In this document: positions 22,201 to 38,600 of the stretch, piece after piece
Layout of the letters: every line of letters begins with the position of its first letter
Numbering within the stretch: position 1 is the stretch's first letter
DNA from: Phycisphaerae bacterium RAS1
GTDB taxonomy: Bacteria; Planctomycetota; Phycisphaerae; UBA1845; Fen-1342
DNA: 64,000 bases
Direction: 5' to 3'
Assembly: GCA_007859745.1 (NCBI GenBank)
Contig: SMLU01000004.1
Location: 310,001 to 374,000, forward strand
The notes under the pieces: generated by a model
Told to the model about the DNA's origin: nothing
The model's database searches: none
Seen by the model: the letters and a program-made list of their open reading frames with translations, nothing else
Translations under genes and position numbers: made by a program

Positions 22201-25200
22201 GAAAACTGCGGCGCGTGGTGCGTCCCGGGCAGGCAGACCTTGTCTATGTGTATGACGAACTCGCAGACGTGTTCCGAACCGGCCTCGATTGCGACGGCGT
22301 CGCCGGACTGCAACGCGCCTCGGCGCACGATCGGATTACGGAAACGGAAACCAAGTTCGACGGAGACTGGCGTAAGACCACGACGACGCAGTATCTGAGC
22401 AGCGGTAGCAGTGACTCGACCGTAATCGGTATACGCCGCGAGAGGGTGAAGAACTGGCTCGAACCCAACCTCGTGAGGGAAACAGAGGAAGTGAGTGTCT
22501 TCGGCACCGGCGGCACCACTATCGCAAAGCAGTACAAAGTCGCCGACGCTCCGGTCGTTAATGACGTCGTCGATTATCCCGATGCAGCGACGAACGCTGT
22601 GCAGGTGACTGAGAACGGTCTGCTGAAGTCCACGACGTCCAAGAGCGGCGTGACCCAGACATTCGAGTATGACGATCTGAGGCGGCGCAAGTCATCGGCC
22701 GACTCTCGCACGAACTGGGCGACCTTCACCGCTTACAACGGCGCCGACGTTGACGCTGTCTACACGACTGTAGACAACCAGCCGGGCGGCACACGCCTTA
22801 CAGACACGGTTTACGAGTATGACCCCACTACCAAGCGGCTTTCCGCGACGAAGCAACTTGACACGTCGGTCCAGCCGGCCGCGTATCGGTACACGCGATA
22901 CGAGTACGCCTCTCGCGGTCAGGTCAAGCGCATGTGGGGTGACATACCGCAGCCGGTCGAATTCAGCTACGACGAGTTCGATCAGCGCACATCGCTGACC
23001 ACGTTCCGTGGCGACGCGGCATGGAGTGGAGCGACCTGGCCGTCCGGAGTGTCCGGCGACACGACGACGTGGATTCTCGACGACGCGTCGGGCGTGCTGT
23101 TGCGCAAGGAGTATGCAGACGGGGAGGGGACAGACTTCACGTACCTCGCCGACGGACGGTTGAAGATCCGAACGTGGGCGCGCGGCGTCACAACCACGTA
23201 CACCTATTTCGGAGAGTCAGGCGCTCCCGCGGGCGACGGAAACGAGCTTTGGAAAACCGACTATTCCGACGCGACGCCCGATGTGACGAACGTTCGTGAC
23301 CGCGCCGGTCGCTTACTGAGCTCGTCGCAAACAGGCGGCCCAACCCACTCGTTCGATTACTCAGCCTGGCCGGGGATCGTCAAGGAGGTGATCAGCGGCG
23401 GCCCGTTTACGCGCGACTACGTCATCACGCGCCAGACGCCTGAAAACGAGTTTGGCAAGCTGAACGCGACGAAGGTCGGCACCACCGGCGATGAGAGCGC
23501 GGACTACTCCGCCAGTTATCTCTACGATGCCTCCACCGGCCGCATGAACCGCATCACCGGTCCGGGTCTGCCGGCGCAGAACGGCGGCGCGTTCTATTCC
23601 TACGTCGCCGGCAGCGACCTCGTCGGCACGCTTGAAGTGCGCGACACGAACGGAACCACTGTCAAACAGCGCACGACGCGGCAGTACGAGACGCCGCGCG
23701 ACCTGATCGATTACATTGAAAATCGCTGGCAGCCGGCCGGGGCGAACGTGCTGGTCTCGAAGTACGACTACGTCAACGACTCGCTCGGCCGCCGGACCGA
23801 TGTGGTCCACACCGGCACGGCTTTTTCCGCCGGGGCGCGGAGCGCGTGGGCGTACAATGACCGCCACGAGCTTGTTGGCCAGGACCGCTTCGCCAACACA
23901 ACAATCGGCGATTCGTCCAACCCGGTCGATGAAGAGTTCTTCGACTACGACTATGATCCCATCGGCAGCCGCGAGACGGCCAGCAAGGGTCAGCAGACGC
24001 CGGCGATGGTGACGTACGCCCGCAACAACCTGAACCAGTACGTGCAGATCGACTCTGCCCAGGCCGCGCCGCGGAAGAATTTCACGCACGACGCGGACGG
24101 AAACCTGTCCGGCGAGTGGCTGACGGGCGACATGAATTGCGACGGCGTCGTAGACATCCTCGATCTGAACGCCTTCGTCCTGGCGATTCTCGACCCGGCG
24201 GCGTACGCCGCGCAATACCCGAACTGCAACCTGACCAGCGGCGACATCAATGGCGACGGGCTGGTGAACGTGCTCGATATCAATCCGTTTAACGATCTTC
24301 TGGGGTTGAAGGACGCGCCGACCGGTCTGAACATCCGCTACGTCTGGGACGGCGAGAACCGGCTGATTGAGGCCCGCCCGGCCGATGATGCCGCGATTCC
24401 CTCGGGCACGCTGCGCAGCTTCTACCGGTACGACTACGCGGGCCAACGCATCGAGAAGGAGGTCAAGACGTATGACGGTTCGTCATGGGGAACCTCGCCG
24501 GTAACGACGCGCACGCGCTACGTTCATGACGGCTGGCTGCTGCTGCTCGAACTTGACGGCCTGGCCAGCAACGCGATTGCGCGCAAGTACACCTGGGGCT
24601 TGGACCTCGCCGGGCTGAACGGCTCGGAAAACGACCGCACGTCCGCCGGCGGCATCGGGGGGCTGCTGGCGATGGAACAAGCCTCCGGCGTCCAATCCGG
24701 CTATTCCGGTGGTTATTTGTATTGCTACGACGCCAACGGCAACGTAACGCAGGTGCTCGACGCCGACGATGGCTCATCCGCCGTTAGGTACGAATACGAT
24801 CCCTACGGCAATCGCGTGAACGCGTCCGCTAGCCCCGAACTCGACCAGCCATTCAGATTCAGCACGCGGCCGTTCGACACCGAGACCGGCTTTGGTTCGT
24901 GGCCATTTCGATACTACGACCCGAGGACGGGGAGGTGGTTGAGTCGCGATCCGCACCATGAACACGGCGGGGCGAACTTGTATCGAGACGTCGAGAACTC
25001 GCCGACCGATCTGATCGACCCGCTTGGCTTGGAAGCCATCGAGGTTGAATTCAACGCCTTCATTCCTGGGAGACTTGGGACTTGGCTACCCGAACCGGGC
25101 GGGGCCTTCGAGCTAGCTGAAGGCGGCGTGTTCTTCAAAACCGATGAACGGAGCTTTGGCGGCGGCGCATCCCGATTATTCACTCGCGTGACGATCGACT

Positions 25201-25697
25201 CCGACTCGATTGGGGCGGCTGCGTGCAAGAAATCAGGACCCACGATTGTAACGGATACGGGCACATCTCACCGCAAGATAACTCGGCGACTCACAACAGG
25301 GTATGGTCATGAATGGGACACTACATACTACGAGAAAAAGGCGGTGCAGACGTCCTCGTCTTCAACATTCCAGGGGAAGTGCAGTACGATAGTCTGTGTC
25401 ACGGCCGCAGCGTCATATCCGTTCTCGATCGTGGCTCCGAATATAGACTACAGCATTTGTTGGCGGTTTACCGTCGCCGCGCGCAATACAGTCACAGTTT
25501 ACGTATGGGGTAGCCATGACAAGTTTCCAAACTACGAAGCACTGATCAACCGACCCGCGTCATTAGGCCAGTACCGGTACGACACGCCGGGGAAAGGACC
25601 TGGTTTCTCCAATTTGTGGCTGGCAGGTCCAGTACGGTTCCAGGGTAGCGGTTACTCGATACTCGTTGACAATACGCCGGAGTGTTGTCCTGAATGA
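19254..25697 (+). CDS. giant RHS/YD-repeat protein with embedded dockerin-like repeats
   Basis: The 2147-residue protein begins with a signal peptide (IARLAAHSALLLSLTTGLAA). A Cys-rich N-terminal part (to about 290) follows, including CDDPDWCYPPNDPRYFCCSD. YD repeats then run from about 480 to 1840, forming the RHS cocoon. Inserted at about 1625-1685 is a dockerin-like pair (GDMNCDGVVDILDLNAFVLA and SGDINGDGLVNVLDINPFN). The RHS core follows (GFGSWPFRYYDPRTGRWLSR, then SPTDLIDPLGLEA at about 1923). The last about 220 residues are the variable tip: FIPGRLGTWLPEPGGAFELA, then GRFxN-free beta segments, loosely resembling DUF3238, with four C-terminal Cys. It starts at ATG 19254 after GGGAGG. The tip is either a toxin or a surface-effector domain. 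Confidence 0.88.
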   Translation: MPAANIARLAAHSALLLSLTTGLAARPTAAQQCLPTCQEETTHDPSCGRPHPVEECLHLVIEPMEVSLSPAIATACVGDTVTITATWLDGDSCHTCDDPDWCYPPNDPRYFCCSDDIQCRTMEGVTYKWSIQSDGTFECCKFTSANPHIDTIQITGTQSSRVVVQCTINDLPCDECSGAFDDPPERLYAVIDFGCALPPNITFDTDELCPDGRSTTTASVLFSNCPGAYSIDWSIKGDAVFDPPNPDGFATATIRAGVHGGLVEVEAVRTDTLACVARGVLTVGCASCASGECGPGQGTASLAEQPTLAFPMGKSWSEQSAGRLYVDLDELSRSSPLSLRFSGSTGSVSNERHAVYDPAGILRQVKTRECLADIRFGGNPAAPSAAHAGYEIWFFRPPASGVWPDANQDGIYDVASATPFAKWRVDSGDPPESAVVRVARIDGDTKYEFSNSVGAAAWTLATYEADELLRTDTLSPELDGSLQRESRDAAGRLLKRTKTYYGTYGWLERREYTDETQFQTWFREYESAPQQPWLLKVERVPNGAWTFYTYDADSRVLWQGGPSSGYPSCPTVPNTSQGRWTHYSYDQLSGDSGDDDNMPRTTSTYVDGTWIAKTYQYTQLAGTELTFIREECLSESASVSSPTNLTTRTTYRDYGNRVLKSLAFPDGRVDRHEYDTPDWALKHVWHLYASGGSELAADGKSTVEAITRDDNGRTTLTQLWLAPLFGTQLTNELSSTSYDYDSVTGRLTDVAHSNGTHANTVWSGCCGTRTHTSELGLKETTEHDIFGRQVLHRLHGYDGTPDVDTVFDYSQFVDGFSAVVTTRSGAVTNLTSLSTTDLSGRVKKHVSENGVTTDYFYDTLPAGGVAVTALRSDGSGEKTEYFADGRVHKVLSRNSDGSYRLDRQYEYGVEALPGTDCTYTREFDGPLGGTSPRWRTTYYDACGRVRREARPSADGSSAEIVTDYYYYTDNEGFGVGQGRAARGKLRRVVRPGQADLVYVYDELADVFRTGLDCDGVAGLQRASAHDRITETETKFDGDWRKTTTTQYLSSGSSDSTVIGIRRERVKNWLEPNLVRETEEVSVFGTGGTTIAKQYKVADAPVVNDVVDYPDAATNAVQVTENGLLKSTTSKSGVTQTFEYDDLRRRKSSADSRTNWATFTAYNGADVDAVYTTVDNQPGGTRLTDTVYEYDPTTKRLSATKQLDTSVQPAAYRYTRYEYASRGQVKRMWGDIPQPVEFSYDEFDQRTSLTTFRGDAAWSGATWPSGVSGDTTTWILDDASGVLLRKEYADGEGTDFTYLADGRLKIRTWARGVTTTYTYFGESGAPAGDGNELWKTDYSDATPDVTNVRDRAGRLLSSSQTGGPTHSFDYSAWPGIVKEVISGGPFTRDYVITRQTPENEFGKLNATKVGTTGDESADYSASYLYDASTGRMNRITGPGLPAQNGGAFYSYVAGSDLVGTLEVRDTNGTTVKQRTTRQYETPRDLIDYIENRWQPAGANVLVSKYDYVNDSLGRRTDVVHTGTAFSAGARSAWAYNDRHELVGQDRFANTTIGDSSNPVDEEFFDYDYDPIGSRETASKGQQTPAMVTYARNNLNQYVQIDSAQAAPRKNFTHDADGNLSGEWLTGDMNCDGVVDILDLNAFVLAILDPAAYAAQYPNCNLTSGDINGDGLVNVLDINPFNDLLGLKDAPTGLNIRYVWDGENRLIEARPADDAAIPSGTLRSFYRYDYAGQRIEKEVKTYDGSSWGTSPVTTRTRYVHDGWLLLLELDGLASNAIARKYTWGLDLAGLNGSENDRTSAGGIGGLLAMEQASGVQSGYSGGYLYCYDANGNVTQVLDADDGSSAVRYEYDPYGNRVNASASPELDQPFRFSTRPFDTETGFGSWPFRYYDPRTGRWLSRDPHHEHGGANLYRDVENSPTDLIDPLGLEAIEVEFNAFIPGRLGTWLPEPGGAFELAEGGVFFKTDERSFGGGASRLFTRVTIDSDSIGAAACKKSGPTIVTDTGTSHRKITRRLTTGYGHEWDTTYYEKKAVQTSSSSTFQGKCSTIVCVTAAASYPFSIVAPNIDYSICWRFTVAARNTVTVYVWGSHDKFPNYEALINRPASLGQYRYDTPGKGPGFSNLWLAGPVRFQGSGYSILVDNTPECCPE

Positions 25698-27023: not shown

Positions 27024-27422
27024 TCATCCGTTCGTCGACTGGCGTTGTCGCGTATGGACCTCCGGCTCGGCTTTCTCACCGGCGGCGCCTGTGTACTCGA
27101 GGTCCCAGTCGTCATTGTGCATGATCCCCCGGCCGTCGGAAACCGAAACGAAGGAAAAACGCTTGCCGATTCCGCTGAAGCCGTGCGGTTCTCTGGGCGC
27201 CTTGACGACAACGTCCCCTTTGCCTACCACCCGCTCGTGGGTACCCAGCGCGCGCGCTTCCCCTTCCACGATCACCATCGTCGCCGCGCAGTCATGAACG
27301 TGAATCGGGATCTCCCCGGCAGGATCGACCTCAACCAGCAACACCTGCACGTCGCGGCCCGCGAAGAGCTCTTGTACACGCGTCCCCCTGCAGCCCGGGA
27401 CTTCCTTTTTCTCGACAATCAT
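27024..27422 (-). CDS. single-domain cupin protein
   Basis: A 132-residue protein with the cupin barrel motifs: EIPIHVHDCAATMVIVEGEA (metal ligands probable at His41 and His43, Glu53 in EGEA) and the second motif GKGDVVVKAPREPHGFSG (His80). The C-terminus is charged (EKAEPEVHTRQRQSTNG). Cupins of this type bind a metal and a small ligand or isomerise or oxidise it. ATG 27422 overlaps the AdoMet-decarboxylase-like stop by ATGA, so the gene is coupled to the operon above it and is its last member. Confidence 0.8.
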   Translation of the reverse strand: MIVEKKEVPGCRGTRVQELFAGRDVQVLLVEVDPAGEIPIHVHDCAATMVIVEGEARALGTHERVVGKGDVVVKAPREPHGFSGIGKRFSFVSVSDGRGIMHNDDWDLEYTGAAGEKAEPEVHTRQRQSTNG

Positions 27423-27811
27423 GAGATCTCCTTTAGGTCGCCCGACGCGTACCGAAAACGACGCACGCTCGGACCGGTATCACGCTGAATCAGCAGAACA
27501 TCCGCGGACTCCACGCGCCAAAACGCGTCCAACTGCCTAAGCACCGCGCGAAGGTGGTATGACTTGCAGCTGTAGACGTCAAAATGAAGCGTCTGGCCCT
27601 CGTCAAAATAGTGAAACGCGATGTGCGAGGTCACGATCCCGACGATCCCAGTAAACCCGAACTTTCCCTTGATCGCGATGGGCTCAAAAAGCTGAGTCAT
27701 GTCGATCGCCCGCACAAAGCCGGATAGAAACGCTCGAAGATCATCGCATGTGATTTCGTCCGGCCTTCGAGCGACCGTCGCAATGACGATTCCGTGTTGG
27801 TGTACGATCAC
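27419..27811 (-). CDS. S-adenosylmethionine decarboxylase-like protein
   Basis: A 130-residue protein with the SpeD-type pattern: Ser62 in GIVTSHIAFHYFDEG, where the canonical proenzyme self-cleaves before Ser to make a pyruvoyl group, and FDVYSCKSY with Cys82, the position of the catalytic Cys. In true SpeD the serine follows a Glu (ESHI); here it is Thr (TSHI), so self-cleavage is uncertain. The product would be a decarboxylated-AdoMet synthase for polyamine synthesis or a repurposed pyruvoyl-type enzyme. It is ATGA-coupled on both sides within the operon. Confidence 0.7.
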   Translation of the reverse strand: MIVHQHGIVIATVARRPDEITCDDLRAFLSGFVRAIDMTQLFEPIAIKGKFGFTGIVGIVTSHIAFHYFDEGQTLHFDVYSCKSYHLRAVLRQLDAFWRVESADVLLIQRDTGPSVRRFRYASGDLKEIS

Positions 27812-28278
27812 GCAGACACCTCGTGCGGCGGTGCATCGAACACTCGCACGCGCATCACCACGCGCGCATCGTCGAAGTCGCCAAGCTTGTTCTCATCCCA
27901 GTAGCGCCCATATTGAAGCGGATCGCGCCCAAGAAAGAAAGCCCTCGCGAGTTTCCGCGCCTGCTCCACGAAGCCCGCCGGCAGGCAGTGGGCCGCGTCG
28001 CACTCCCCGACGCAAAAAAGCCAGAATTCTCCCGCGACGACGCGCGGAACGAACGGAAAAATCCGGCAGATCAGCGGCTTGACGTCCTGGACGGAGCAGC
28101 GTCCTTCCTTGAGATACGGGCAGGCGCCGCGTTCCAGGAAGTACACGTCGTCCGCCCAATAGTGCATCGCATCAAGCCGCGTGAATTGGATGATCCGTTC
28201 CCGCTCCGTCCCCAATACGAGCGTGCGGCCCACGCAGCACTTCCCCCCGCACGTCCGGCACACATCGAGCAGGCTCAT
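27808..28278 (-). CDS. YkgJ-like Cys-cluster (CxxC) protein
   Basis: The protein starts MSLLDVCRTCGGKCCVGRT and contains CPYLKEGRCSVQDVKPLICR, then WLFCVGECDAAHC. This is the Zn/Fe-chelating Cys cluster family (YkgJ type), about 156 residues from ATG 28278. An ATG at 28359 would add 27 residues overlapping the ATPase gene and lacks a visible motif; the shorter form starts directly at the Cys cluster. The role in this family is unknown; oxidation-sensitive metal binding is typical. It ends in an ATGA overlap with the AdoMetDC-like gene. Confidence 0.75.
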   Translation of the reverse strand: MSLLDVCRTCGGKCCVGRTLVLGTERERIIQFTRLDAMHYWADDVYFLERGACPYLKEGRCSVQDVKPLICRIFPFVPRVVAGEFWLFCVGECDAAHCLPAGFVEQARKLARAFFLGRDPLQYGRYWDENKLGDFDDARVVMRVRVFDAPPHEVSA

Positions 28279-28337
28279 CTCGTCCGGCCGGCACGGCTGG
28301 CAGCTTCCGCCGCCGCTCTCCGTTTGGCTGATGCATC

Positions 28338-29456
28338 TCAGGCGGGATGGTCGGTGCATCGCTTGTCGATCCTCAAGCCGGTCTTCACGTCAAAGAACCG
28401 CAGCGCCGAGGCCGAACAACTGAGCCGGACGTCGCCGCCCGCAGGTCGGCGGGGGGCGCGAACAAGGGCGATTCCGCCCGGACTTGCGCAATGTACCACA
28501 AGGTCCGGCTCCACGCCCTCCACTAACTCAACCCGGGCGTTCCAGGCCAAGGTATCGGTGTCCCGCTCCGCTGCCGTCGAGCCCGCCTCTATCGAAATCT
28601 CATGCGGCCGAGCGCCCACCGTCACGCACTGGCCCGGGTAGACCGTAGGGCAGCGTTGAAGCGCGAGCTCGGTCGCCCCGCCGCCCTCCAGTTCGATCGT
28701 GACGACGCCGGCGTCCACGGCGCGAATGCGCCCCGGCATCAGGTTCATGGGCGGGTCGCCCACGAACGACGCAACGAAAACGCTGGCGGGATTGGTGAGT
28801 ATCTCCGTTGGCGTGCCGCACTGTTCCACTCGGCCCTGGTTCATCACAGCAATACGATCGGCGAGCGCGACTGCATCGTCCTGGTCGTGCGTAACATAAA
28901 CCGTGGTCACCCCGAACGTCCGCTGGATGCGCCTGATTTCCGCCCGCCCGGCGACGCGACGCTGGGCGTCGAGGCTGCTGAGCGGCTCGTCGAGCAGGAA
29001 ACAGGAGGGGCGGCGCACCAGGGCGCGGGCCAGCGCTACACGCTGCGCCTCGCCGCCGCTGAGCCGGCCGGGCCAGCGATCGAGCAGTTTCTCGATTCCC
29101 AGCAGTCGCGCGACCTCCTCCGCCTGCGCGGCTCGCTCAGCGCGTCCGATTCCGGCCACGCGAAGCGGATACTCGATGTTGCCCCGCACCGTTCGATGCG
29201 GATAGAGCGCGTAGCTCTGAAACACCATCGCGACGTTCCGCTTCTGCGGCGGCCATGCGGTGCGATCCTCGCCGTCAAACAGCACGCTGCCGCTGTCAGG
29301 CGCCTCCAGTCCGGCAATAATGCGCAGGAGCGTCGTCTTTCCACATCCGGAGGGACCAAGGAGGACGACCAATTCGCCGGCGGATGCCGCGAGCGAACAC
29401 TCGGCTAGCGCGCGGAGACTCCCGTAAATTTTTGAGATGAAATTGCATGTCACCAC
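28338..29456 (-). CDS. sugar-type ABC transporter ATPase (MalK/UgpC family)
   Basis: The about 372-residue ATPase powers the importer. Walker A GPSGCGKTT, Q loop VFQSYALYP, signature LSGGEAQRVALARAL, Walker B CFLLDEPLSSLDAQ and H loop VTHDQDDAVALADR are intact, followed by the C-terminal regulatory OB-fold domain (VTVGARPHEISIEAGS). GTG 29456 or 29453 places the typical short N-terminus before FISKIYGSLRAL; an ATG at 29483 would overlap the preceding gene by 22 nt. It lies between an unrelated membrane gene and the YkgJ-like gene in one polycistron. Confidence 0.88.
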   Translation of the reverse strand: MVTCNFISKIYGSLRALAECSLAASAGELVVLLGPSGCGKTTLLRIIAGLEAPDSGSVLFDGEDRTAWPPQKRNVAMVFQSYALYPHRTVRGNIEYPLRVAGIGRAERAAQAEEVARLLGIEKLLDRWPGRLSGGEAQRVALARALVRRPSCFLLDEPLSSLDAQRRVAGRAEIRRIQRTFGVTTVYVTHDQDDAVALADRIAVMNQGRVEQCGTPTEILTNPASVFVASFVGDPPMNLMPGRIRAVDAGVVTIELEGGGATELALQRCPTVYPGQCVTVGARPHEISIEAGSTAAERDTDTLAWNARVELVEGVEPDLVVHCASPGGIALVRAPRRPAGGDVRLSCSASALRFFDVKTGLRIDKRCTDHPA

Positions 29457-29461
29457 GTTGC

Positions 29462-30538
29462 TCAAGAAAGCGTCTCGATACACCCGTTGTAGGTCTCAGC
29501 AAGGAACCACACGTTTAACACCGACACACACGCAGTGACTAGCATGAAGACCAAGATCAGCGCGAGTTCGTAGTAATTGGGGCTGTCGGAGAAATGTCTA
29601 TACAAGCACAGGAACACAGAGATCACAACGAGGTCGATGCTGTCCCAGATCCAATATTTCAACACATGGCTGTGCTTCTTCCAGACTTTTGCAAAAGCGC
29701 CTTTCACCGGCCGCAGACATGACGCCCCCGCGGGCTGTTGGCTCGAAGCGTCGGTCTGGGCAGGCTTGCCAGAAACGATCTCGAGCATGGCAAAGTAGGT
29801 CATCGGAGATAGGATAATGAGCATGTCGACAATCGGCAACCACCACAGCAATTGGAGCCATTGCCCGGCCTGTGGCACAGCAACGGCAGCGTGATACAGC
29901 AGTCCAAACTCGGCCAATACGATCGTGCTCACCCACACGCACCTTCTCGTCTGCATGGTTGCCTTGTCGCAGCGCCAGAGCGGATCAACGGCACACACAA
30001 GGTAGCGCCCAACCAAAAGTAGCGTAGCAAGGACCTGACACCATCCCAGGGCATATAGAATCCATGGTATCCAACAGTTACTACACTTCACATTCATCGA
30101 ACACTGTGGACACTGCCCGGGAGAACTCGCTCCAGCAACCCGACTCCATACTCCATCAAACGATTTTTCGAGGATCAACGCAATGAGCACTAGATAGGAC
30201 CAGCGGACCGCCTTTGCAAACCGGCGCCGCAGACTGCTCGTCTGCTCTGTTGCGCGGGCGCAATCGCGAAGTCGCGCGAGTGCCTGCGTGGCTTCATCGG
30301 CAACGCGAGCCGCGCTAAGTATGGCCGTTAGTGCTTCGTAGTCTTCTTCTCGGAAGTGACCGAGGAACACAAGTTGTTTGTTCGCGCTAACGTACCACAG
30401 TTTCCTCTCCCAACGTAGCGGAATGGCCTTCAAGAGCGCCTTTGCGCTATCCTCGCTGCAGGCCGTGCGATAGCACACAATGCGGAGCATGGTTCCCGCT
30501 GCGCTCACATCGACCGCGGCGGCTTCGCTCATGACCAC
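29462..30538 (-). CDS. multi-spanning membrane protein of unknown function
   Basis: The 358-residue protein has a soluble N-terminus (ERKLWYVSANKQLVFLGHFR) and six or so hydrophobic helices (WSYLVLIALILEK, ILYALGWCQVLATLLLVGRYLV, WLPIVDMLIILSPM, LALILVFMLVTACVSVLNVW). A Cys-rich loop CPQCSMNVKCSNCWIPW lies between the first two. It has no ABC permease signature, yet it sits between the MalG-type permease and the ATPase, overlapping the permease stop by 10 nt. Lower-GC codon use compared with its neighbours is visible by eye (CAA, AAT, ATA, TTT more frequent). It may be a recent insertion or a regulator of the importer. Confidence 0.6.
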   Translation of the reverse strand: MVMSEAAAVDVSAAGTMLRIVCYRTACSEDSAKALLKAIPLRWERKLWYVSANKQLVFLGHFREEDYEALTAILSAARVADEATQALARLRDCARATEQTSSLRRRFAKAVRWSYLVLIALILEKSFDGVWSRVAGASSPGQCPQCSMNVKCSNCWIPWILYALGWCQVLATLLLVGRYLVCAVDPLWRCDKATMQTRRCVWVSTIVLAEFGLLYHAAVAVPQAGQWLQLLWWLPIVDMLIILSPMTYFAMLEIVSGKPAQTDASSQQPAGASCLRPVKGAFAKVWKKHSHVLKYWIWDSIDLVVISVFLCLYRHFSDSPNYYELALILVFMLVTACVSVLNVWFLAETYNGCIETLS

Positions 30539-31356
30539 ATTCCTCCCTGTAGCTCCCGGACGGCAAAGCGGCGTGCTGCAATCGCGAACAACAGGCCGGG
30601 AACCACGCTAATGGTGCTGATCGCCGCGACCTCGCCCCAGTACGTTCCGTGAGGAGTAACGAGGCCAGGGATGGCGACGGTGAGCGGCCGTGACTGGTAG
30701 CCGGTCAGCATCAGGGCCAGGAAAAACTCGTTCCAGGAGTTGACGAAGCAGAAGGCTGCGGTGGCAACCAGGCCGGGAAGGCAGGCCGGCAGAACCTGTG
30801 CGAGCAGCGTCATGAGCCGGCCGCTGCCATCCAGCAGGGACGCTTCGTCGATGTCCGTGGGAATCTCGTCGAAGAACCCCTTCATGACCCAGGTCGCCAG
30901 CGCCAACCCCACGGCAGCGTGGACCAATATGATGGCTGCATAGGAGTCGATCAGTTGCAAGCGCGTGAAGATCAGAAACAGCGGCAGCGCGATGGTCGTC
31001 GCAGGCGCCATGCGCACGCTCATCAGCGCCAGCAGAATGGTGCGCGCCCCGCGGAAGCGGCGGCGTGACGCGGCGTACGCCAGGGGCACGCCGAGCAGAA
31101 GGGCCAGCGCGGCGCTGGCGGATGCGATCAGCAGTGAATTCAGCAGCGGGCGCAGTTGGCCGCTCTGGGCTAGGACCGCGCGGTAATGGGTCAGGGTCGG
31201 TTCGAAGAGCCACCGCGGCGGGCTGGCCAGTGCGTCGGCGCGCGTTTTGAGCGACGTCAATGCGCCCCAGACGATCGGAAAAAGGACGCTCCCGGCGAGC
31301 AGCGCTCCGAAGAGCGCCGCCGTCACGCCGCCCAGCGTACCCGCCCGCCGGCTCAT
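30529..31356 (-). CDS. ABC transporter permease (MalG type)
   Basis: A 275-residue inner-membrane permease with six predicted helices. The cytoplasmic EAA-loop region is DIDEASLLDGSGRLMTLLAQ, just after the motif GFFDEIP. The conserved NSWNEFFLALMLTGYQSRPL lies near the C-terminus, as in MalG-type partners. ATG 31356 overlaps the MalF-type stop as ATGA; an upstream extension to 31431 would overlap that gene entirely and is rejected. It forms the heteromeric channel with the next gene up. Confidence 0.88.
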   Translation of the reverse strand: MSRRAGTLGGVTAALFGALLAGSVLFPIVWGALTSLKTRADALASPPRWLFEPTLTHYRAVLAQSGQLRPLLNSLLIASASAALALLLGVPLAYAASRRRFRGARTILLALMSVRMAPATTIALPLFLIFTRLQLIDSYAAIILVHAAVGLALATWVMKGFFDEIPTDIDEASLLDGSGRLMTLLAQVLPACLPGLVATAAFCFVNSWNEFFLALMLTGYQSRPLTVAIPGLVTPHGTYWGEVAAISTISVVPGLLFAIAARRFAVRELQGGMWS

Positions 31357-32240
31357 CTTAGAACTCCAGCCCGCAGGCGCGGCATGGTTGCACTCGCTGC
31401 GACGTACGTAATGAGATACAGGATCACGCACAAGGCCGCGGCGTAGCCGAAGTCCCAGTATTTGAACGCCACGCGCCAGACGTGAAGGCTGACCAGTTCG
31501 GACGCTGTTCCGGGGCCGCCGCCCGTCAGAACATACACCTTGTCAAACTCTTTGAACGACTCGATGGCGCGGATAAGGGCGACCGTGAAGATCGCCGGCG
31601 CGAGGCGGCGCAGCGTCACGTCGAAGAACGCCCGAATTCGCGAGGCGCCGTCGGCCCACGCGGCTTCGAGCGGCGGCTTTGAAAGCGCACCGCGCGCCGT
31701 TAGCAGGAAAAAGCAGACGAACGGCCCCCACTGCCACAGGTCGATAAGCGCCAGCGTGACGAGAATTGTCTCTGGCGAACTCAACACCCCGCGCGCGCCG
31801 GCGAATCCGAGTTGCGCCAGATAGTGGCTGACAGGGCCGAACTCGCCTTGAAGCAGGAGGCGCCAATACAGTCCAACCACGACCGACGGCAGGAGCAGTG
31901 GGAGAATCAGGATCGGCGAAAGCCATCGCTGCAGGCGCTCGCGTTCGACGAACAGCTCCGCGAATAGCAAGCCAATCACCACCTGCGGAAACACACACAG
32001 AGCAGCGAAAAGCAGGGACCTACCGCTGCTAGCCATGAATGTGGATTGCCGCGAAAACGCCCGCGCATAGTTCTCTATGCCGATAAACTCGCCAGACCCT
32101 TCGGGTGTTGCGAAGCTCAAATTCGTGAACGAAAGCCACAGCATGTAGATAAACGGTCCCAGAAACACTGCGCAAAGAAAGAGCATGCATGGACCAACGG
32201 TCCACCAAAGCGAAACGTCGCCTCCTGGTCGCCGGCGCAT
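31353..32240 (-). CDS. ABC transporter permease (MalF type)
   Basis: The about 295-residue product starts with MRRRPGGDVSLWWTVGPCML and has six helices. The cytoplasmic coupling motif is EAAWADGASRIRAFFDVTLRRLAP, followed by the typical SFKEFDKVYVLTGGGPGTAS. ATG 32240 (or GTG 32243) starts just after the binding-protein stop. It pairs with the downstream MalG-type permease. Confidence 0.88.
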   Translation of the reverse strand: MRRRPGGDVSLWWTVGPCMLFLCAVFLGPFIYMLWLSFTNLSFATPEGSGEFIGIENYARAFSRQSTFMASSGRSLLFAALCVFPQVVIGLLFAELFVERERLQRWLSPILILPLLLPSVVVGLYWRLLLQGEFGPVSHYLAQLGFAGARGVLSSPETILVTLALIDLWQWGPFVCFFLLTARGALSKPPLEAAWADGASRIRAFFDVTLRRLAPAIFTVALIRAIESFKEFDKVYVLTGGGPGTASELVSLHVWRVAFKYWDFGYAAALCVILYLITYVAASATMPRLRAGVLR

Positions 32241-32248
32241 CACGCATC

Positions 32249-33685
32249 TCAACGTGGCGGGTATTTGAGTTCGGCTTTCTCGCCAAGCAGCGCCTTGATT
32301 TGGAGGGCCGCGGAGTCCAGCGAGTCCTTCACGCTCTTCTGGCCGGCCAACGCCTCTGAGATCGCGGTCTTTATGACCTCGCCGATCTGCAGCGATTCCG
32401 GAATCGTGTAGAGCATTGCTGGATGGGTGTTCTTGAGCGCGTCGATGCTGGTCCGCGTCCACGGAAGCGAGACGACTTCGCTGTCCTCATACGTCGACTT
32501 TCGCGGCGAGGCGCCGCCGAGCTTCTGCTGTCGAACCTGGCTGTCAGCCCGGAGCATCCACTCGACAAAGAGATAGGCGGCCTCCGGAGACCGGGAAGTC
32601 GCCGGAATGTAGTAGGATTGGCCGCCGATCTGATGCATGCGCCCCGCGCTGCCCGCTGGGATCATGCAGTATCCCATCTTGCCGGCGACTTTTGACTGCT
32701 GAGGGTCTTCGAGCGTATACGTCGAGTCTGTCCACATGAGGCACATTGCAACTTTCCCCTGCTGCATGAGCGCTAGGGCGTCGTCCCAGGTGAACGAAAG
32801 CGAGTCGGCCGGAGCGTATTTCAGAAGGGCCTTGTAATACTCCGTGGCCGCAATCGCCGCCGGGGAGTTTATGACGATTGGACCATACTTGGAAGGGTCG
32901 CGGGTGTCGAGAATCGCTCCGCCAAATGAATACAGGAAGTTGATGTACTCCTGCCAGAGCGCCATATGCTTCTTTCCCTGAATCAGCGTACCGTACAAAC
33001 CGCGTTCGGGGCGCGTAAAGAACTCGGCGATGTCACGATATTGCCGCCAATCTGAGGGTGCAGCGAGCTCATAACCGAACCTCTCGCGAAATCGCGCGCG
33101 TTCAGTCTGATCCTCAAAGAGGTCTTTTCGGTACCAGGTATACATCGTGAGAACCATCATTGGGTAGCCAAATGGTTTTCCGTCGTACCACCCCATCGTC
33201 TTCCAGACCGGGAAAAGATCTCCATCAGGATTGAATAACGGATCATGCAGCTTGGAGTCAGCCAGGAACTCGGTGAGCGGGCGCAACTGCTGCTGCGTTA
33301 CGAGACGTCCCATGTCAAAGTAGACTTGGACAATGAGGTCGTAGTGGCCTGCTTTTGAGTTGAGGTCGAAGGCGACTTTCTGTAGGACGGCTTCCGCCTC
33401 GTACCGCTCCACTTCAACCTTGATTCCTGTGGCGTTTTCGAAGTCCCCTTTCATCTTGTCGATCGCCTGGAGTGGAGCGTAGTCCTCTCCGATCATTCGA
33501 ATCGTCCGGCCGCGAAACGGCTCCGCGGCCTTCTGAAGGGACCATCCCGCGTGCGTCGCCGGTTGGCTTGCGGGGCTAGTTGCCGACCGCGCGGAGTCCG
33601 ATTCTCGGCATGCGGCCGGGAGCAGAAGCAAGAGAAGGGAAAGCACAGGAGCAACGAACGGAATCTGAAAGCGGTGCCGAGACAT
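32249..33685 (-). CDS. extracellular solute-binding lipoprotein (family 1)
   Basis: ATG 33685 gives a signal peptide with lipobox LPAAC (Cys26), so the 478-residue protein is lipid-anchored. The mature region begins with GRTIRMIGEDYAPLQAIDKM and has the family 1 features of sugar-binding proteins: FENATGIKVEVERYEAEAVL, GKPFGYPMMVLTMYTWYRKD, GKVAMCLMWTDSTY and KMGYCMIPAGSAG. It captures substrate for the permeases encoded just downstream. The ligand is unknown; related proteins bind sugars, polyols or glycerol-phosphate. It heads the operon. Confidence 0.88.
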   Translation of the reverse strand: MSRHRFQIPFVAPVLSLLLLLLPAACRESDSARSATSPASQPATHAGWSLQKAAEPFRGRTIRMIGEDYAPLQAIDKMKGDFENATGIKVEVERYEAEAVLQKVAFDLNSKAGHYDLIVQVYFDMGRLVTQQQLRPLTEFLADSKLHDPLFNPDGDLFPVWKTMGWYDGKPFGYPMMVLTMYTWYRKDLFEDQTERARFRERFGYELAAPSDWRQYRDIAEFFTRPERGLYGTLIQGKKHMALWQEYINFLYSFGGAILDTRDPSKYGPIVINSPAAIAATEYYKALLKYAPADSLSFTWDDALALMQQGKVAMCLMWTDSTYTLEDPQQSKVAGKMGYCMIPAGSAGRMHQIGGQSYYIPATSRSPEAAYLFVEWMLRADSQVRQQKLGGASPRKSTYEDSEVVSLPWTRTSIDALKNTHPAMLYTIPESLQIGEVIKTAISEALAGQKSVKDSLDSAALQIKALLGEKAELKYPPR

Positions 33686-33859: not shown

Positions 33860-33890
33860 GGGGTCGGCGTCACAATTGTGGGTAAGTCAC
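33860..33890. repeat. left terminal inverted repeat of the insertion sequence
   Basis: GGGGTCGGCGTCA begins the left end; the matching start of the right end read on the minus strand is GGGGTGGGCGTCA. The shared positions total 23 of 31. Confidence 0.75.
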
Positions 33891-34591
33891 GCGGCGGCGA
33901 GCGGGTGGGTTTGCCAGAGGCGCTCCCAGTCGCCGTTGAGCCAGGCGCTGCGAAGCGAGAGCACGGCTTGCGAGCCGCGTTCGGACCAGCGCATGCCGCT
34001 GCGTTTCATGCGCAACGCGACCACGTGCTTACAGGCCGCTTCCACGCGACCCGAGCCGATGTCCAGCCCGGCCGCCCGGAAGCGGTCGTAGGCCAGTCGG
34101 CTGTCCTGGTTGCTGAGGTAGGTCAGCAGTCCGTCCAGGGCGAGGCGCTTGGCGCGGCCGCGCAGGCGCGCACGCTGCTGTCGCAGGCGCTCCAGAATCG
34201 CGCGCACGTTGCCATCCCACAGCAACAGCTCGATTTCCTTGACCCAGGCCGTAGTCGCCGGCGTGCCTTCGCCATGCAGCAGGCGCCCGCAAGTCCAGAC
34301 GTGCTGCAGCGCGTGGTACCAATCGACGATGCAGATCGCCTCTTTGAGCAATCCGCCGATGTGCTTCCAGATCCACTCCGCCCCGTCGCCCAGCAGCACG
34401 ACCCGTTGGGCGCGCTCCAGCCCGCAGCGGCAGGCCAAGGCCCACACAAAGCCCACGAACTCCGCCGCACTCTCGAAGCGCACCGCGTAGCGCGTGGCCC
34501 GCGGACCCGCCGGCGGATCGCTATAGCACGCCACGCACTTGGCCTCATGCCAGCCGCTCTCTTGATGGACTTGCACTCCGTCCGTCAGCAC
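33887..34591 (-). CDS. ISKra4-type transposase, C-terminal part
   Basis: The second frame carries the catalytic core: VLTDGVQVHQESGWHEAKC, LLGDGAEWIWKHIGGLLKEA, and the C-terminal AAGLDIGSGRVEAACKHVVA with LRMKRSGMRWSERGSQAVL. Asp in DGVQVH and in GDGAEW and Glu in GRVEAAC fit a DDE triad. In this frame the open reading continues upstream of the ATG at 34591 (SPAPAPEAAPHTCYVLTDG), so it is normally reached by frameshift from the upstream part. Some ISKra4-family elements are reported to use a -1 programmed frameshift. Confidence 0.8.
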   Translation of the reverse strand: MLTDGVQVHQESGWHEAKCVACYSDPPAGPRATRYAVRFESAAEFVGFVWALACRCGLERAQRVVLLGDGAEWIWKHIGGLLKEAICIVDWYHALQHVWTCGRLLHGEGTPATTAWVKEIELLLWDGNVRAILERLRQQRARLRGRAKRLALDGLLTYLSNQDSRLAYDRFRAAGLDIGSGRVEAACKHVVALRMKRSGMRWSERGSQAVLSLRSAWLNGDWERLWQTHPLAAA

Positions 34592-35157
34592 GTAACACGT
34601 GTGCGGGGCGGCCTCGGGTGCAGGCGCCGGCGACTCAGCGCCGCCGCCTGTTGCTCTTCCTGCTGGGCCGCCACGCCGCCCACCTTTTCGGTCAGCCGCT
34701 GAACCGTGGATTCGCTCAGCCGCTGCCCGGTCAAACGCTGCAGCGTGGCGGCGGCGTTGGCGAAGGTGTCATGCACGCCCAGCAGAGCGGCCGCCTGAGC
34801 CAGCCCAACGCTCTCGGGACCGGCCCCCAGGCCGATGCGTTGGTCGTAGGGCAAAGCCGACTGACCGCAGTGCCGGCAACGGTAATAGGCCCGGCGGATC
34901 GCAAGCGTGCCCATCTGCGTGGCAATCGTCTTGGGCCGGTGTTCGACGAAACGCTGCGTTTGGCCGCACGAGCAGGGGCGATGCGGCCCTTCGTAGCCCA
35001 GCTTGCGCCCAGCCAGATGAATTTCGAGCGCCTTGACGCCAATCCGCCGCACCACGGATAGCAACGCCGGCTCCAACTGCGTCAGATCATCCGTCAGACC
35101 GACGCCATCCGCCGCACACAACGCCAACACCGCCTGCGCAACCTCGCTAAAATCCAC
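34585..35157 (-). CDS. ISKra4-type transposase, N-terminal part
   Basis: The 190-residue frame has the N-terminal zinc-finger and HTH half: CSCGQTQRFVEHRPKTIAT, RRAYYRCRHCGQSALPYDQ and ALLGVHDTFANAAATLQRLT with LSESTVQRLTEK. It ends QQAAALSRRRLHPRPPRTRV then TC-stop. The last about 15 residues are out of frame relative to the true protein, which continues in the -1 frame from around GAGCAACAGG. A -1 shift between about 34620 and 34680 (minus strand) would fuse the two parts into one about 420-residue transposase. Confidence 0.75.
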   Translation of the reverse strand: MDFSEVAQAVLALCAADGVGLTDDLTQLEPALLSVVRRIGVKALEIHLAGRKLGYEGPHRPCSCGQTQRFVEHRPKTIATQMGTLAIRRAYYRCRHCGQSALPYDQRIGLGAGPESVGLAQAAALLGVHDTFANAAATLQRLTGQRLSESTVQRLTEKVGGVAAQQEEQQAAALSRRRLHPRPPRTRVTC

Positions 35158-35254: not shown

Positions 35255-35625
35255 TTGCCGGACAAAACGGCGCCGTGGCGGCCGACCCTTGAGTCGGCCG
35301 AGATTCCGCCGCCGCATCGGCGGCCTCGCGCGGGTCCACCAGCGCGGGTCGGAAATGTCAAAGTCTCGGCGGTCCGTGATTCCCTGCCGGAATTGCCGCT
35401 AATTCTGATCGTGCCACGGCGAACTGGACGTTCGGCGCTCGCTGAATCGCTCAGCGTGCGCATCAGCACCTGCACGAGCGCGCGATAATACTCGATTTTT
35501 TGCAGAACCGGCTCTGGGTGTCCACGCTCGGCTTCGCGCCGCATGCACAGGAACTTATCATCTGGGCCGCGCGACCGAGAGATCGGCGTGCTAACCAAAC
35601 ACCTGTTGAACATCGAGCGAGCGTA
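35255..35625. other. intergenic region upstream of the methylase gene
   Basis: Contents from left to right: one target-site duplication, a hairpin GGCCGAC-CCTTGA-GTCGGCC (35280-35299), a second Gly/Cys-free stem around TCCGCCGCCGCATCGGCGG (35305-35324), a dispersed repeat copy (35326-35460), then about 160 bp to the proposed GTG start. No small gene is evident. Any promoter for the methylase lies here and is not clear by eye. Confidence 0.5.
35326..35460. repeat. third copy of the dispersed repeat
   Basis: The unit begins TCGCGCGGGTCCACCAGCGC and continues through TCGGCGGTCCGTGATTCCCT and TGGACGTTCGGCGCTCGCTG to AATCGCTCAGCGTGCG. It matches 26606-26730 in the same order and orientation, with indels. 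The two loci are about 8.7 kb apart, and the other copy sits next to RHS-associated DNA. It carries no ORF. Confidence 0.65.
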
Positions 35626-38600
35626 GTGCAACTGACGGCGGACATCGATCTTACGACGAAGGACATCGCCGGCCTGGCGTCGCTCGACGCCGTGGCCGGG
35701 TTTCTGGCTCGGCTGGGCTATCCGACCGACCGCCGCGCGGAGCTGTCCGCGACGGCGCTCGGACTCCCGCCGGACACCGCCGACGCGATTCGCAAGATCG
35801 AGCTGCTCGCCGAGGACGCCGAGCGTTTTTTCCGCGTCCTCTTCGTCCAGCTTCGGTCCGTCACGGCCAAGGCCCGCAACGAGCTGGCCCGCAATCTGGG
35901 CAGCCGCAACGCCGACCATCTTCTCATCCTGGCCAAGGACTTTGACGTGCTCGAGTTCGTGCTCATCGACAAGGAAACACGTCAGCGGCACGCCCCCGGC
36001 GGCGGCCCGAGTGTGCGGGTGATCCCGCGCGTCGTCACGGTGATGCGGAAGGCCAGCACGCACCTCGATCGCCGCGTCCTTCGTCGCCTGACCTGGACGG
36101 GTAAAGACGGCCTCGACCAATTCGACAAGCTCCGCAGCGTGTTCGAGGCGGCCCACTACAGCGGTCAATACTTTCAGAACCGGGCGCTTTTCGCCGACCA
36201 CTATCTCGAAACTCGCCTGCGAGAGGACGCCGCCTGGCGCGACGATCCGTCCACGACGTTCGCTTCCGTCCGCGACCTGCTCAGCAACGCCCGCGGCCGC
36301 TGGAGCGGCAAACCTGAGCAAACTGTGCGCGGCGAGCTGTTTGAGCCGCTCTGGAAGCTGCTCGGATTCAAGCCGAAGGTCGCCAAGGCCGCGAACAAGG
36401 ATCACCTGACGCCCGATTACGAGCTTCACGGCGCCGACGGCGCGCTGCTGACCGTCGCCTTCTGCTACCGCTGGGATCGCTGGCTCGACGGTCCCGACCT
36501 GAACGACCCCGACACGCCCGAGGAAAACCCCGGCGCCGCGGTCGTCTCCGCGCTCGCCGAGGGCAAGGCGCGCTGGATCATCGTCACCAACGGCAAGTAT
36601 TGGCGGCTCTACAGCCGCGACGCCCACTCGCGCTCGACGAACTTCTACGAGGTCGATCTCGAAGAAGCGCTGCTCGCGTCCGGCGAGACTGACCCCAACG
36701 AGGCGTTCCGCTATTGGTGGCTCTTCTTCCGGCGGCCCGCGTTTGAGACGCTGACGAGCACAGGCTCGACGGGCGAGACGCCCATCCCACCCTGCTGGCT
36801 GGACATGATCGTCCGGGGCAGCCGCGATTACGCGAAGCGCTTGGGCGACCGCCTGAAGGACCGCATCTTCGTCGAGATCTTTCCGCACCTGGCGCAGGGG
36901 TTCTTACTGGACCGGAAGAAGCGGCTCGGCCTCACACGTGCTCCGAGCGACGACGAGCTGCGGGACACGTTCGAGGCGACGCTCACGCTGCTCTATCGGC
37001 TGCTGTTCCTGCTCTATGCCGAGTCCCGCGACTTGCTGCCCGTTCGCGAGGCCGCGTACAAGGCCGCCAGTCTGAAAGAGATCAAGGAGGAAATCGCCGG
37101 GCACGCCGGCGTCGCGGAATCCGAGGCTGCGAGCAAACTGAGAGCCTATTCCGACGCCGAGGCGACCATCTATGACCGGATGACGCGCCTGTTCGCCGTC
37201 ATGGACCAGGGCGATGTCGTGCTCAACGTCCCGTGCTACAACGGCGGCCTGTTTCTCACGCAGCCGGACCGCCAGTCGATCGAGCGCGAACATCGCATCG
37301 CCCGTTTCCTGCTCGAGCACGAAGTTCCGGACCGCCATCTCGCTTTGGCGATTGACCGCCTGGCCCGCGACGTGGACGACAAGACGTTCTCGCTCTCCTT
37401 CATCGACTACAAGTCGCTGGAAGTGCGGCACCTCGGCAGCATTTACGAGGGCCTGCTCGAATTCAAGCTGAAGATCGCCGAGGAGGACCTCGGCGTCACG
37501 ACCGAAAAGAAGGCTGAGAAGTACATCCCGCTTTCGCAGGCGCGCCCCGGCCGCGGTCGCCGCCGACTGGCGGGCGGGGACGCCCACCCCACCCCCTTCG
37601 TTCGCAAGGGCGAGGTCTACCTGTCGAACGACAAGGCCGAGCGCAAGGCGACGGGCAGCTACTACACGCCGGACCCGATCGTCGAATACATCGTCGAGCA
37701 CACGGTCGGCCCCGTCCTCGCCGAGAAGCTGGATGCACTGCGCCCCGATCTGAACGCCGCCGGCAAGACGTACCACCGCCATCTGACCAACGCGAAGAAC
37801 AACCCCGGCTTGGTCCCCAAGGACGCCGATCCGCGGGCCTTCGCAGCCGCGAAAACCTACGCCGAGCACCGCGACCTGGTGGACCGCGTCTTCGACCTGA
37901 AGGTGCTCGACCCGGCCATGGGCAGCGGGCACTTCCTGGTCGAGGCGGTGGACTTCATCACGGACCGGCTGCTCGACTTCCTCAACCGCTTCCCGCACAA
38001 CCCCGTCCAGTTCGCCCTCGACAAAACGCGGCGGAGCATCCTGGACGCCCTGGGCGAGCAGGGCGTTACCGTCGATCCCGACAAGCTGACCGACGTCAAC
38101 CTGCTCAAGCGCCACGTGCTCAAGCGCTGCATCTACGGCGTGGACCTGAACCCGATGGCGGTGGAGCTGGCCAAGGTAAGCCTGTGGCTCGACGCGTTTA
38201 CGCTCGGGGCGCCGCTGAGCTTCCTGGACCACCACCTGCGCTGCGGCAACAGCTTGATCGGCGCCACGTTCGAAGACCTGAAGAAGGCGACCAGCGGGCA
38301 GCTTTTCGCGATCGACTACGAGCCGCTGCTGCGCGCCATTCGCCACGTGCTCTTCGTGAACGAGATGGCCGACGCGACGGCCGCGGAGGTCCACAAGTCC
38401 GCCGACGAGTATTCGCATGCCCGCCGGGAGCTGTCGGGCTATCAGATCGTGCTTGACCTGCTCGTGGCCGACCACTTCGTGGACTGTGGCACCGGTTTCC
38501 AACCGGTGAAGGGTGGTGCGGGCGTCTCGCCCGCCGATCCGAGCCGCGACCGCGAGGGAGCGAACGAAAAGGCCAAAAGACGCAAGCGCGGGACTTCTCC

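Follow-up and report, generated by a model that had tools for sequence, protein, structure and literature searches.

A divergent SpeD-like protein encoded beside a cupin in an importer operon of Phycisphaerae bacterium RAS1 is a candidate pyruvoyl decarboxylase for arginine or ornithine

SpeD homologues annotated as S-adenosylmethionine decarboxylase (AdoMetDC) are common, and a number of them have changed their substrate, as described in PMC10407285 and PMC9992855. What, then, does a SpeD-like gene do at the end of an ABC importer operon? Such an operon is present in a stretch of 64,000 nucleotides from Phycisphaerae bacterium RAS1 (contig SMLU01000004.1, positions 310,001 to 374,000), which was analyzed as a whole and is called the window here. 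Eight genes, all read from the minus strand between 33685 and 27024, encode in the order of transcription a solute-binding protein (SBP), two permeases, a membrane protein, an ATPase, a YkgJ-like protein, the SpeD-like protein and a cupin. We find that the SpeD-like protein, although diverged, belongs to a type of enzyme already described, and that its gene context is new. With somewhat better than even confidence we take it to be a SpeD-derived pyruvoyl decarboxylase that is not an AdoMetDC, with arginine as the first and ornithine as the second choice of substrate and with the cupin as its partner, to which the importer, the YkgJ-like protein and the membrane protein have been added.

The SpeD-like gene (27419..27811, minus strand) encodes a predicted pyruvoyl decarboxylase proenzyme of 130 amino acids which matches PF02675 with 41 bits (cut-off 25). 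Residues 61-64 read TSHI; Ser62 is the predicted pyruvoyl residue, accompanied by His67 and Cys82. The sequence pattern of this type of protein can be written as IAI-x-GK-[FY]-GFTGIVGIVTSHIAFHY. An AlphaFold2 model based on an alignment of 32 sequences had a predicted local distance difference test (pLDDT) score of 96.4, and a Foldseek search with this model gave five matches at E ≤ 0.001, all of them class 1b AdoMetDCs (2iii, 1vr7, 1tlu, 1tmi). With template-modelling scores (TMt) of 0.80 against 1tlu_A and 0.72 against 2iii the protein has the class 1b fold. Ser62, His67 and Cys82 align to the pyruvoyl and catalytic residues of 2iii, are invariant across the 32 sequences, and correspond to S63, H68 and C83 of the Thermotoga maritima AdoMetDC, which serve in processing and catalysis (PMC10407285). 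The score with the AdoMetDC equivalog model TIGR03330 is only 26 bits, compared to a cut-off of 75.65; a SpeDC-type protein (locus L161) likewise stays below it with 30 bits. Furthermore, HYFDE of the SpeD-like protein aligns with HTWPE of 2iii, so that the Pro is absent. A conserved Pro distinguishes AdoMetDC from arginine decarboxylase in Fig. 8 of Li et al. (PMC10407285); that this is the Pro marked there is our assumption, and the validated AdoMetDC phiN3 also has no Pro at the HTWPE position.

The 32 aligned sequences comprise the window's protein and homologues from planctomycetes, a gamma proteobacterium, a Neomarinimicrobiota metagenome-assembled genome (MAG), a Candidatus Kaiserbacteria MAG and viral contigs. 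The closest relative found in the collections searched is encoded on contig VGJQ01000003.1 of the Kaiserbacteria MAG and is 54% identical over 129 residues; the other 30 are only 26-36% identical. TSHI is common to many phage and bacterial SpeD homologues, including that of pelagiphage HTVC201P, the nearest assayed protein compared (record AXH71538, printed in the paper as AHX71538), which is 32% identical to the window's protein. No assayed close member was found in the divergent lineage to which the window's protein belongs. In a tree of 59 rows, a clade of 37 rows unites the proteins from the window, Kaiserbacteria and HTVC201P, with a support of 91/97, slightly below the level that the program marks with a star. 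Forcing the window and Kaiserbacteria pair into the ESH-type rows was rejected by the approximately unbiased test (p-AU 0.015; the groups were defined after the tree had been viewed). The initial annotation had read TSHI in place of ESHI as the sign of an altered pyruvoyl enzyme, and the low TIGR03330 score together with the grouping among TSH-type homologues bears this out.

Relatives of this protein are rare in its own phylum. A SpeD match occurs in 11 of 392 genomes, the own protein scoring 285 bits and the next 31. When 61 genomes close to that of the window were searched, two had a match, the lower one scoring 42 bits. A contig scan with the SpeD-like protein alone gave no relative, and one with the SpeD alignment gave 18 loci. 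Scans of viral contigs with two-sequence alignments of SpeD and of the cupin gave no relative; with a broader SpeD alignment, a relative was found to be encoded in at least 452 of 600 candidate stretches, from which 80 loci were kept. Some loci carry more than one number (L002/L014/L030; L003/L015; L005/L016/L043; L028/L130; L131/L160). In the class of the Kaiserbacteria MAG, 78 of 383 genomes have some SpeD match, which exceeds 67 bits only in two, the MAG itself (G452) and G602. In the latter, a TSH-type SpeD (L160, 2189-2635) that groups with viral-contig forms lies on contig 127, which is 3.7 kb long and was binned with a genome of this class; its neighbours look phage-like by eye. In six loci of the class (L137, L142, L143, L153, L156, L157) two SpeD matches each lie close together, and the SpeDC-type match of L156 is part of an open frame of 469 residues, possibly a fusion. 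In Microcystis phage MaAM05 (L024, 911-3249) two adjoining SpeD homologues are followed by genes annotated as speE and speB, a candidate for a phage-borne pathway from arginine to spermidine.

For the choice of substrate, published enzymes and the content of the genome were considered. According to PMC9992855, the HTVC201P protein decarboxylates L-arginine, not ornithine or lysine, and restored no spermidine in a speD deletion strain. The phage proteins LBP and UCP01-04, described there as HTVC201P-like, decarboxylate ornithine, with arginine as an additional substrate for one; a search of the phage collection for their sequences found none of them. Li et al. 2023 (PMC10407285) report genomes that have SpeD-derived decarboxylase homologues and no canonical SpeA or SpeC. 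In genomes lacking SpeB and AguA/AguB, they consider that the homologue could decarboxylate ornithine; where SpeB or AguA/AguB is present, it is tied to arginine decarboxylase, and speDA-speB-speY clusters stand for a homospermidine route. The genome of the window, which is 99% complete, contains one SpeD homologue and no second one. It encodes an agmatinase (248 bits, cut-off 174) and a protein similar to deoxyhypusine synthase (DHS) and SpeY, which remains below all cut-offs (best with PRK00805, 230 of 434 bits; NF002699, 160 of 500). The single protein of family PF02784 is LysA. Because agmatinase and the SpeY-like protein are present, a second SpeD is missing and PF02784 is represented by LysA only, arginine decarboxylase is the first choice and ornithine decarboxylase the second. 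When further genomes encoding a TSH-type SpeD were searched for the DHS family, three of the four (G453, G454 and G455) had it.

Pyruvoyl chemistry via a Schiff base, with assistance by His and Cys, is established for the class 1b AdoMetDC family. By analogy, the proenzyme would cleave itself between Thr61 and Ser62 and thereby acquire the pyruvoyl group at Ser62. The substrate, a basic amino acid and most likely L-arginine, would then form a Schiff base with this group and lose CO2 to give agmatine, with His67 and Cys82 assisting as in the class 1b enzymes; L-ornithine, the second choice, would give putrescine. Agmatinase (SpeB) and the SpeY/DHS-like protein, both encoded elsewhere in the genome, would convert the product further into polyamines of the homospermidine type. 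A Thermus-like agmatine-coupling route, as described in PMC10981699, could be an alternative to the homospermidine route in this genome.

Several observations weigh against the assignment as an arginine decarboxylase in particular and against a changed substrate in general. At 26-36% identity, transfer of the substrate from HTVC201P to the window's protein is weak. All 32 aligned sequences share T-S-H, partly by construction since the patterns used for fetching relatives contained TSH, and two TSH rows (L010 and L133) lie outside the clade of 37 rows. The validated AdoMetDC phiN3 has no ESH glutamate in the alignment and groups with SpeDC-type rows; TSH by itself is no proof. In the genome, the search that left LysA as the single PF02784 protein did not extend to PF01276 and PF01862, and the Kaiserbacteria MAG has no DHS match. 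The same module might act on L-ornithine instead, as a pyruvoyl ornithine decarboxylase which makes putrescine directly. We regard this as rather unlikely. It would fit the activity of LBP and UCP01-04, an arginase-like protein encoded in the genome (213.8 bits, under the cut-off of 227.6) and the finding that forcing the window pair to group with SpeDC-type rows was not rejected (p-AU 0.284), which also belongs among the objections to arginine. However, the genome encodes agmatinase, and of the four residues diagnostic for SpeDC (Gln, Thr, Phe and Tyr; PMC10407285) the window's protein has Thr only, when their positions are inferred from the form QLIETS...HF...Y[LI]D.FSC of L007, L148 and L161. 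With one of four residues by this placement, the label of a classic SpeDC was set aside. A true AdoMetDC, making spermidine together with a spermidine-synthase-like protein, is in our judgement very improbable. This role keeps some weight, to be set against a changed substrate, because the genome has three spermidine-synthase-like matches, two of them above the Pfam cut-off; moreover, fold and catalytic Ser, His and Cys are the same, and phiN3 manages without the glutamate. On the other side stand the low TIGR03330 score, the change from Glu to Thr and the missing Pro opposite HTWPE, as well as the rejected grouping with ESH-type rows. In addition, the open frames that contain the synthase-like matches are 1265, 876 and 492 residues long, and the stretch of the best match passes only the cut-off of MFS_SpdSyn (42.3 compared to 40).

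The last gene of the operon (27024..27422, minus strand) encodes a Cupin_2 protein of 132 amino acids with HVHDCA and PHGF motifs (PF07883, 27.7 bits, cut-off 27.2). Two conserved His in HxHDCA and one in PHGF, as seen in the alignment, may form a metal site. The cupin was modelled with a pLDDT of 66 (residues 102-132 below 50), and the nearest fold, for which such a moderate model is a weak guide, is that of the manganese cupin TM1459. On the Kaiserbacteria contig VGJQ01000003.1 a cupin 52% identical over 113 columns is encoded directly upstream of the SpeD-like gene, on the same strand and 53 nt apart. SpeD and cupin are the recurring unit, though in two genomes only. In a search of 343 genomes of the phylum the cupin model matched in 54, and the best score besides the own was 36.6 bits versus 257.7, the latter being high by construction as the cupins from the window and from Kaiserbacteria had themselves served to build the model; apparently, this is therefore not a common cupin that came to lie nearby by chance. 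No cupin match was found in phages at E ≤ 0.01. Among plasmids, the Kaiserbacteria cupin matched one Treponema cupin with 30% identity, within 4 kb of which no SpeD is annotated.

Within this SpeD lineage the cupin would work together with the decarboxylase, probably as a metal-binding accessory or downstream enzyme, and it might aid activation or act on the product of the enzyme. More specifically, it could be the dedicated partner of a separate lineage of SpeD-derived pyruvoyl decarboxylases, which aids self-cleavage, regulates the enzyme or acts on its product, as part of a mobile two-gene module shared by bacteria of the candidate phyla radiation (CPR) and planctomycetes and wired to the importer here; amine production would then follow solute supply. 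To this extended proposal we give little credence. The pair rests on two genomes: by blastp at E ≤ 1e-3 across 159 loci, the cupin was confined to the loci of the window itself and to the Kaiserbacteria place (L028, L130), so that no other SpeD locus among them has it, and the 3.7-kb contig of G602 contains no cupin. Furthermore, a different contig of the Kaiserbacteria MAG encodes another SpeD homologue, which is of SpeDC type. Both facts weigh against the reading of the SpeD-like protein and the cupin as an amino acid decarboxylase and its partner. Because of this separate gene, the TSH-type SpeD and cupin are probably not simply the ornithine decarboxylase of that organism, which suggests a substrate or role of the pair other than plain ornithine decarboxylation. 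An activator of self-cleavage is known in PanZ, which serves PanD, a pyruvoyl enzyme not related to SpeD (PMC3496974). No description of a SpeD-cupin pair was found in the open literature, to which coverage was limited as opposed to subscription journals, and the word cupin is absent from PMC10407285.

The eight genes are closely packed. The SBP and permease 1 genes are separated by 8 nt, the junctions between permease 1, permease 2 and the membrane protein are ATGA overlaps, and the membrane protein and ATPase genes overlap by 22 nt, as do those of the ATPase and the YkgJ-like protein. The SpeD-like gene starts with GTG, giving a GTGA overlap with the YkgJ gene, and its junction with the cupin gene is again ATGA. 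Seven tight junctions fit a single transcript for all eight genes; promoter- and terminator-like sites around the operon were not above those in shuffled sequence. Seven of the eight proteins have Pfam matches, the membrane protein being the exception. Open reading frames, Pfam matches and junctions confirm the operon of the initial annotation, in which an importer is joined to YkgJ-like, SpeD-like and cupin genes. Of the ATGA overlaps it described among these genes only that of SpeD and cupin is found, the others being the 22-nt and GTGA overlaps.

The importer begins with the SBP (32249..33685, minus strand as are all of the following genes), which has 478 amino acids, belongs to SBP_bac_1 (PF01547, E 5.6e-34) and the sugar/polyol class, and has an N-terminus that by eye resembles a lipoprotein signal. 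Permease 1 (31353..32240, 295 amino acids, PF00528, E 9e-18) is MalF/UgpA-like; its start was assigned to the ATG 8 nt past the SBP stop, and its best NCBIfam models, obtained with a frame extending further at the start, are GlcT and UgpA, both below cut-off. Permease 2 (30529..31356, 275 amino acids, PF00528, E 4.7e-14) is MalG/GlcU-like. The ATPase (28338..29483, 381 amino acids) is of MalK/UgpC type with an OB_MalK domain (PF00005, E 1.1e-34; PF17912, E 3e-6) and matches UgpC best in NCBIfam (350 bits, cut-off 432). An SBP_bac_1 protein, two permeases and a MalK-type ATPase with OB domain give the importer the make-up of a CUT1 transporter, and by homology its solute appears to be sugar- or polyol-like.

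Between permease 2 and the ATPase lies the gene of the membrane protein (29462..30532, 356 amino acids), for which no family was found. Hydropathy indicates a soluble N-terminal part followed by five hydrophobic segments above the threshold used, and the protein carries a CPQC...CSNC pair. It had no match in Pfam or NCBIfam at E ≤ 0.1, and none in PHROGs, PADLOC, PDB sequences or the plasmid collection. Among 120 genomes including the window's own, only the latter matched at E ≤ 1e-3. It had been described as a low-GC gene interrupting the order of permease and ATPase. The position is correct and its GC content of 55.6% is below the window mean of 64.3%; however, it is not alone in this, since the SpeD-like gene has 55.5% and the SBP gene 58.0%. 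An insertion of low GC was set aside because GC and GC at third codon positions (0.65 for the membrane gene, 0.67 for the SpeD-like gene) equal those of the SpeD-like gene. The YkgJ-like protein (27808..28359, 183 amino acids) belongs to the CxxCxxCC zinc/iron-chelating family with a score above the gathering cut-off (PF03692, 32 bits, cut-off 23) and, going by the family name, may bind zinc or iron, with no evident tie to the metal of the cupin.

How are importer and enzyme related? The initial annotation had proposed that a polyamine- or AdoMet-related compound is imported and then converted. The location of a SpeD-derived gene within the importer operon and matches of the ATPase to PotA models, below cut-off, would speak for it, but the nearest solved chains of the SBP are 5iai, named a sugar ABC transporter, and 4rya, a sorbitol binding protein, its three nearest solved relatives being named as sugar, sorbitol and maltose binding proteins. 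Its three NCBIfam matches (MalE, NgcE, GanS) are all under cut-off and include no PotD model, and the Pot equivalogs score low (PotA with the ATPase, 291.5 bits, cut-off 482; PotC with permease 2, 54.8 bits, cut-off 326). A polyamine importer of the PotABCD kind was set aside on the SBP class and these scores; no feature singles out polyamines or AdoMet as the solute, and the wider proposal was not supported and is improbable. A stronger competitor is that the YkgJ, SpeD and cupin genes arrived apart from the importer, e.g. as phage- or CPR-derived cargo, and share no pathway with it. This is compatible and overlaps with the assignment of the SpeD-like protein as an amino acid decarboxylase, and we see it as a real, though lesser, possibility; about a third of the weight goes to a loose or chance association of importer and enzyme. 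By phmmer at E ≤ 1e-4 in a later set of loci, of which 116 carry a TSH-type SpeD (counting three from the window itself and several duplicates), neither the SBP and permeases nor the membrane protein and YkgJ had a match outside the window's operon, which holds to the distance of the flanks (mostly 1.5-6 kb, some cut at contig ends). Four ABC ATPases matched that of the operon, two of them in the TSH loci L034 and L040 about 5 kb from SpeD, and there were 14 cupin matches across loci. By blastp at E ≤ 1e-3 in the 159 loci, YkgJ was not found beyond the window's own. Among the 120 genomes, the SBP matched only in the window's own at E ≤ 1e-60, a strict limit which distant relatives would escape, and the same single genome has the membrane protein. 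ISKra4-like transposase frames just upstream of the operon also fit separate arrival. The tight overlaps throughout the operon and the recurrence of the SpeD-cupin part in another phylum, in swapped order, argue against it. Conservation of the whole operon found no support; to the distance of their flanks, related SpeD loci are without importer, membrane protein and YkgJ. These three look like local additions of the window's genome; both acquisition there and loss elsewhere would fit the distribution. Any link between the imported solute and the enzyme would be conjectural.

The transposase, of the ISKra4 family, lies on the same strand as the operon (33887-35157) and is frameshifted or split. 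Its frames at 34591-33887 (184.5 bits) and 35157-34585 (71.4 bits) overlap, and neither reaches the cut-off of 205; no obvious pair of terminal inverted repeats was found for it. Beyond it, on the plus strand (35500-40203), a protein of 1567 amino acids resembles type IIG restriction-methyltransferases and DrmMI (best PADLOC score 256 bits). On the other side of the operon, at 19254-25697 (plus strand), a YD-repeat (RHS-like) protein of 2147 amino acids is encoded, with apparent dockerin-type repeats by eye.

Overall, gene names by themselves are no sufficient ground for assigning a spermidine or AdoMet pathway to the operon. If SpeD and cupin work together, the cupin would be the first partner known to us of any SpeD-derived decarboxylase from prokaryotes. 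The importer shares its composition of SBP_bac_1, two BPD_transp_1 permeases and a MalK-type ATPase with OB domain with the CUT1 systems MalEFGK and UgpBAEC. It differs from them in that its proteins reach the cut-off of none of the NCBIfam models listed, and in the relative-less membrane protein between permease and ATPase. Compared to TM1459-type manganese cupins, the operon's cupin has the Cupin_2 domain and its moderate-confidence model comes closest to their fold; it is only about 22% identical and has an extra C-terminal tail, and the function is not transferable. The Kaiserbacteria pair likewise has adjoining genes on one strand, with similar identities for both proteins. In contrast to the SpeD-cupin order and ATGA overlap of the window, the order there is cupin-SpeD with a spacer, and within 12.4 kb there is no importer and no YkgJ, a PrmC-like gene being next. 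With SpeDA and SpeDC, as described in PMC10407285 and PMC9992855, the SpeD-like protein shares the class 1b AdoMetDC fold with pyruvoyl Ser, His and Cys. It has TSHI in common with HTVC201P, and its genome contains agmatinase and SpeY-like genes and no second SpeD. Whereas the published clusters combine these enzymes with speB, speY, speE or hss, the gene of the window stands beside an importer, a cupin and YkgJ.

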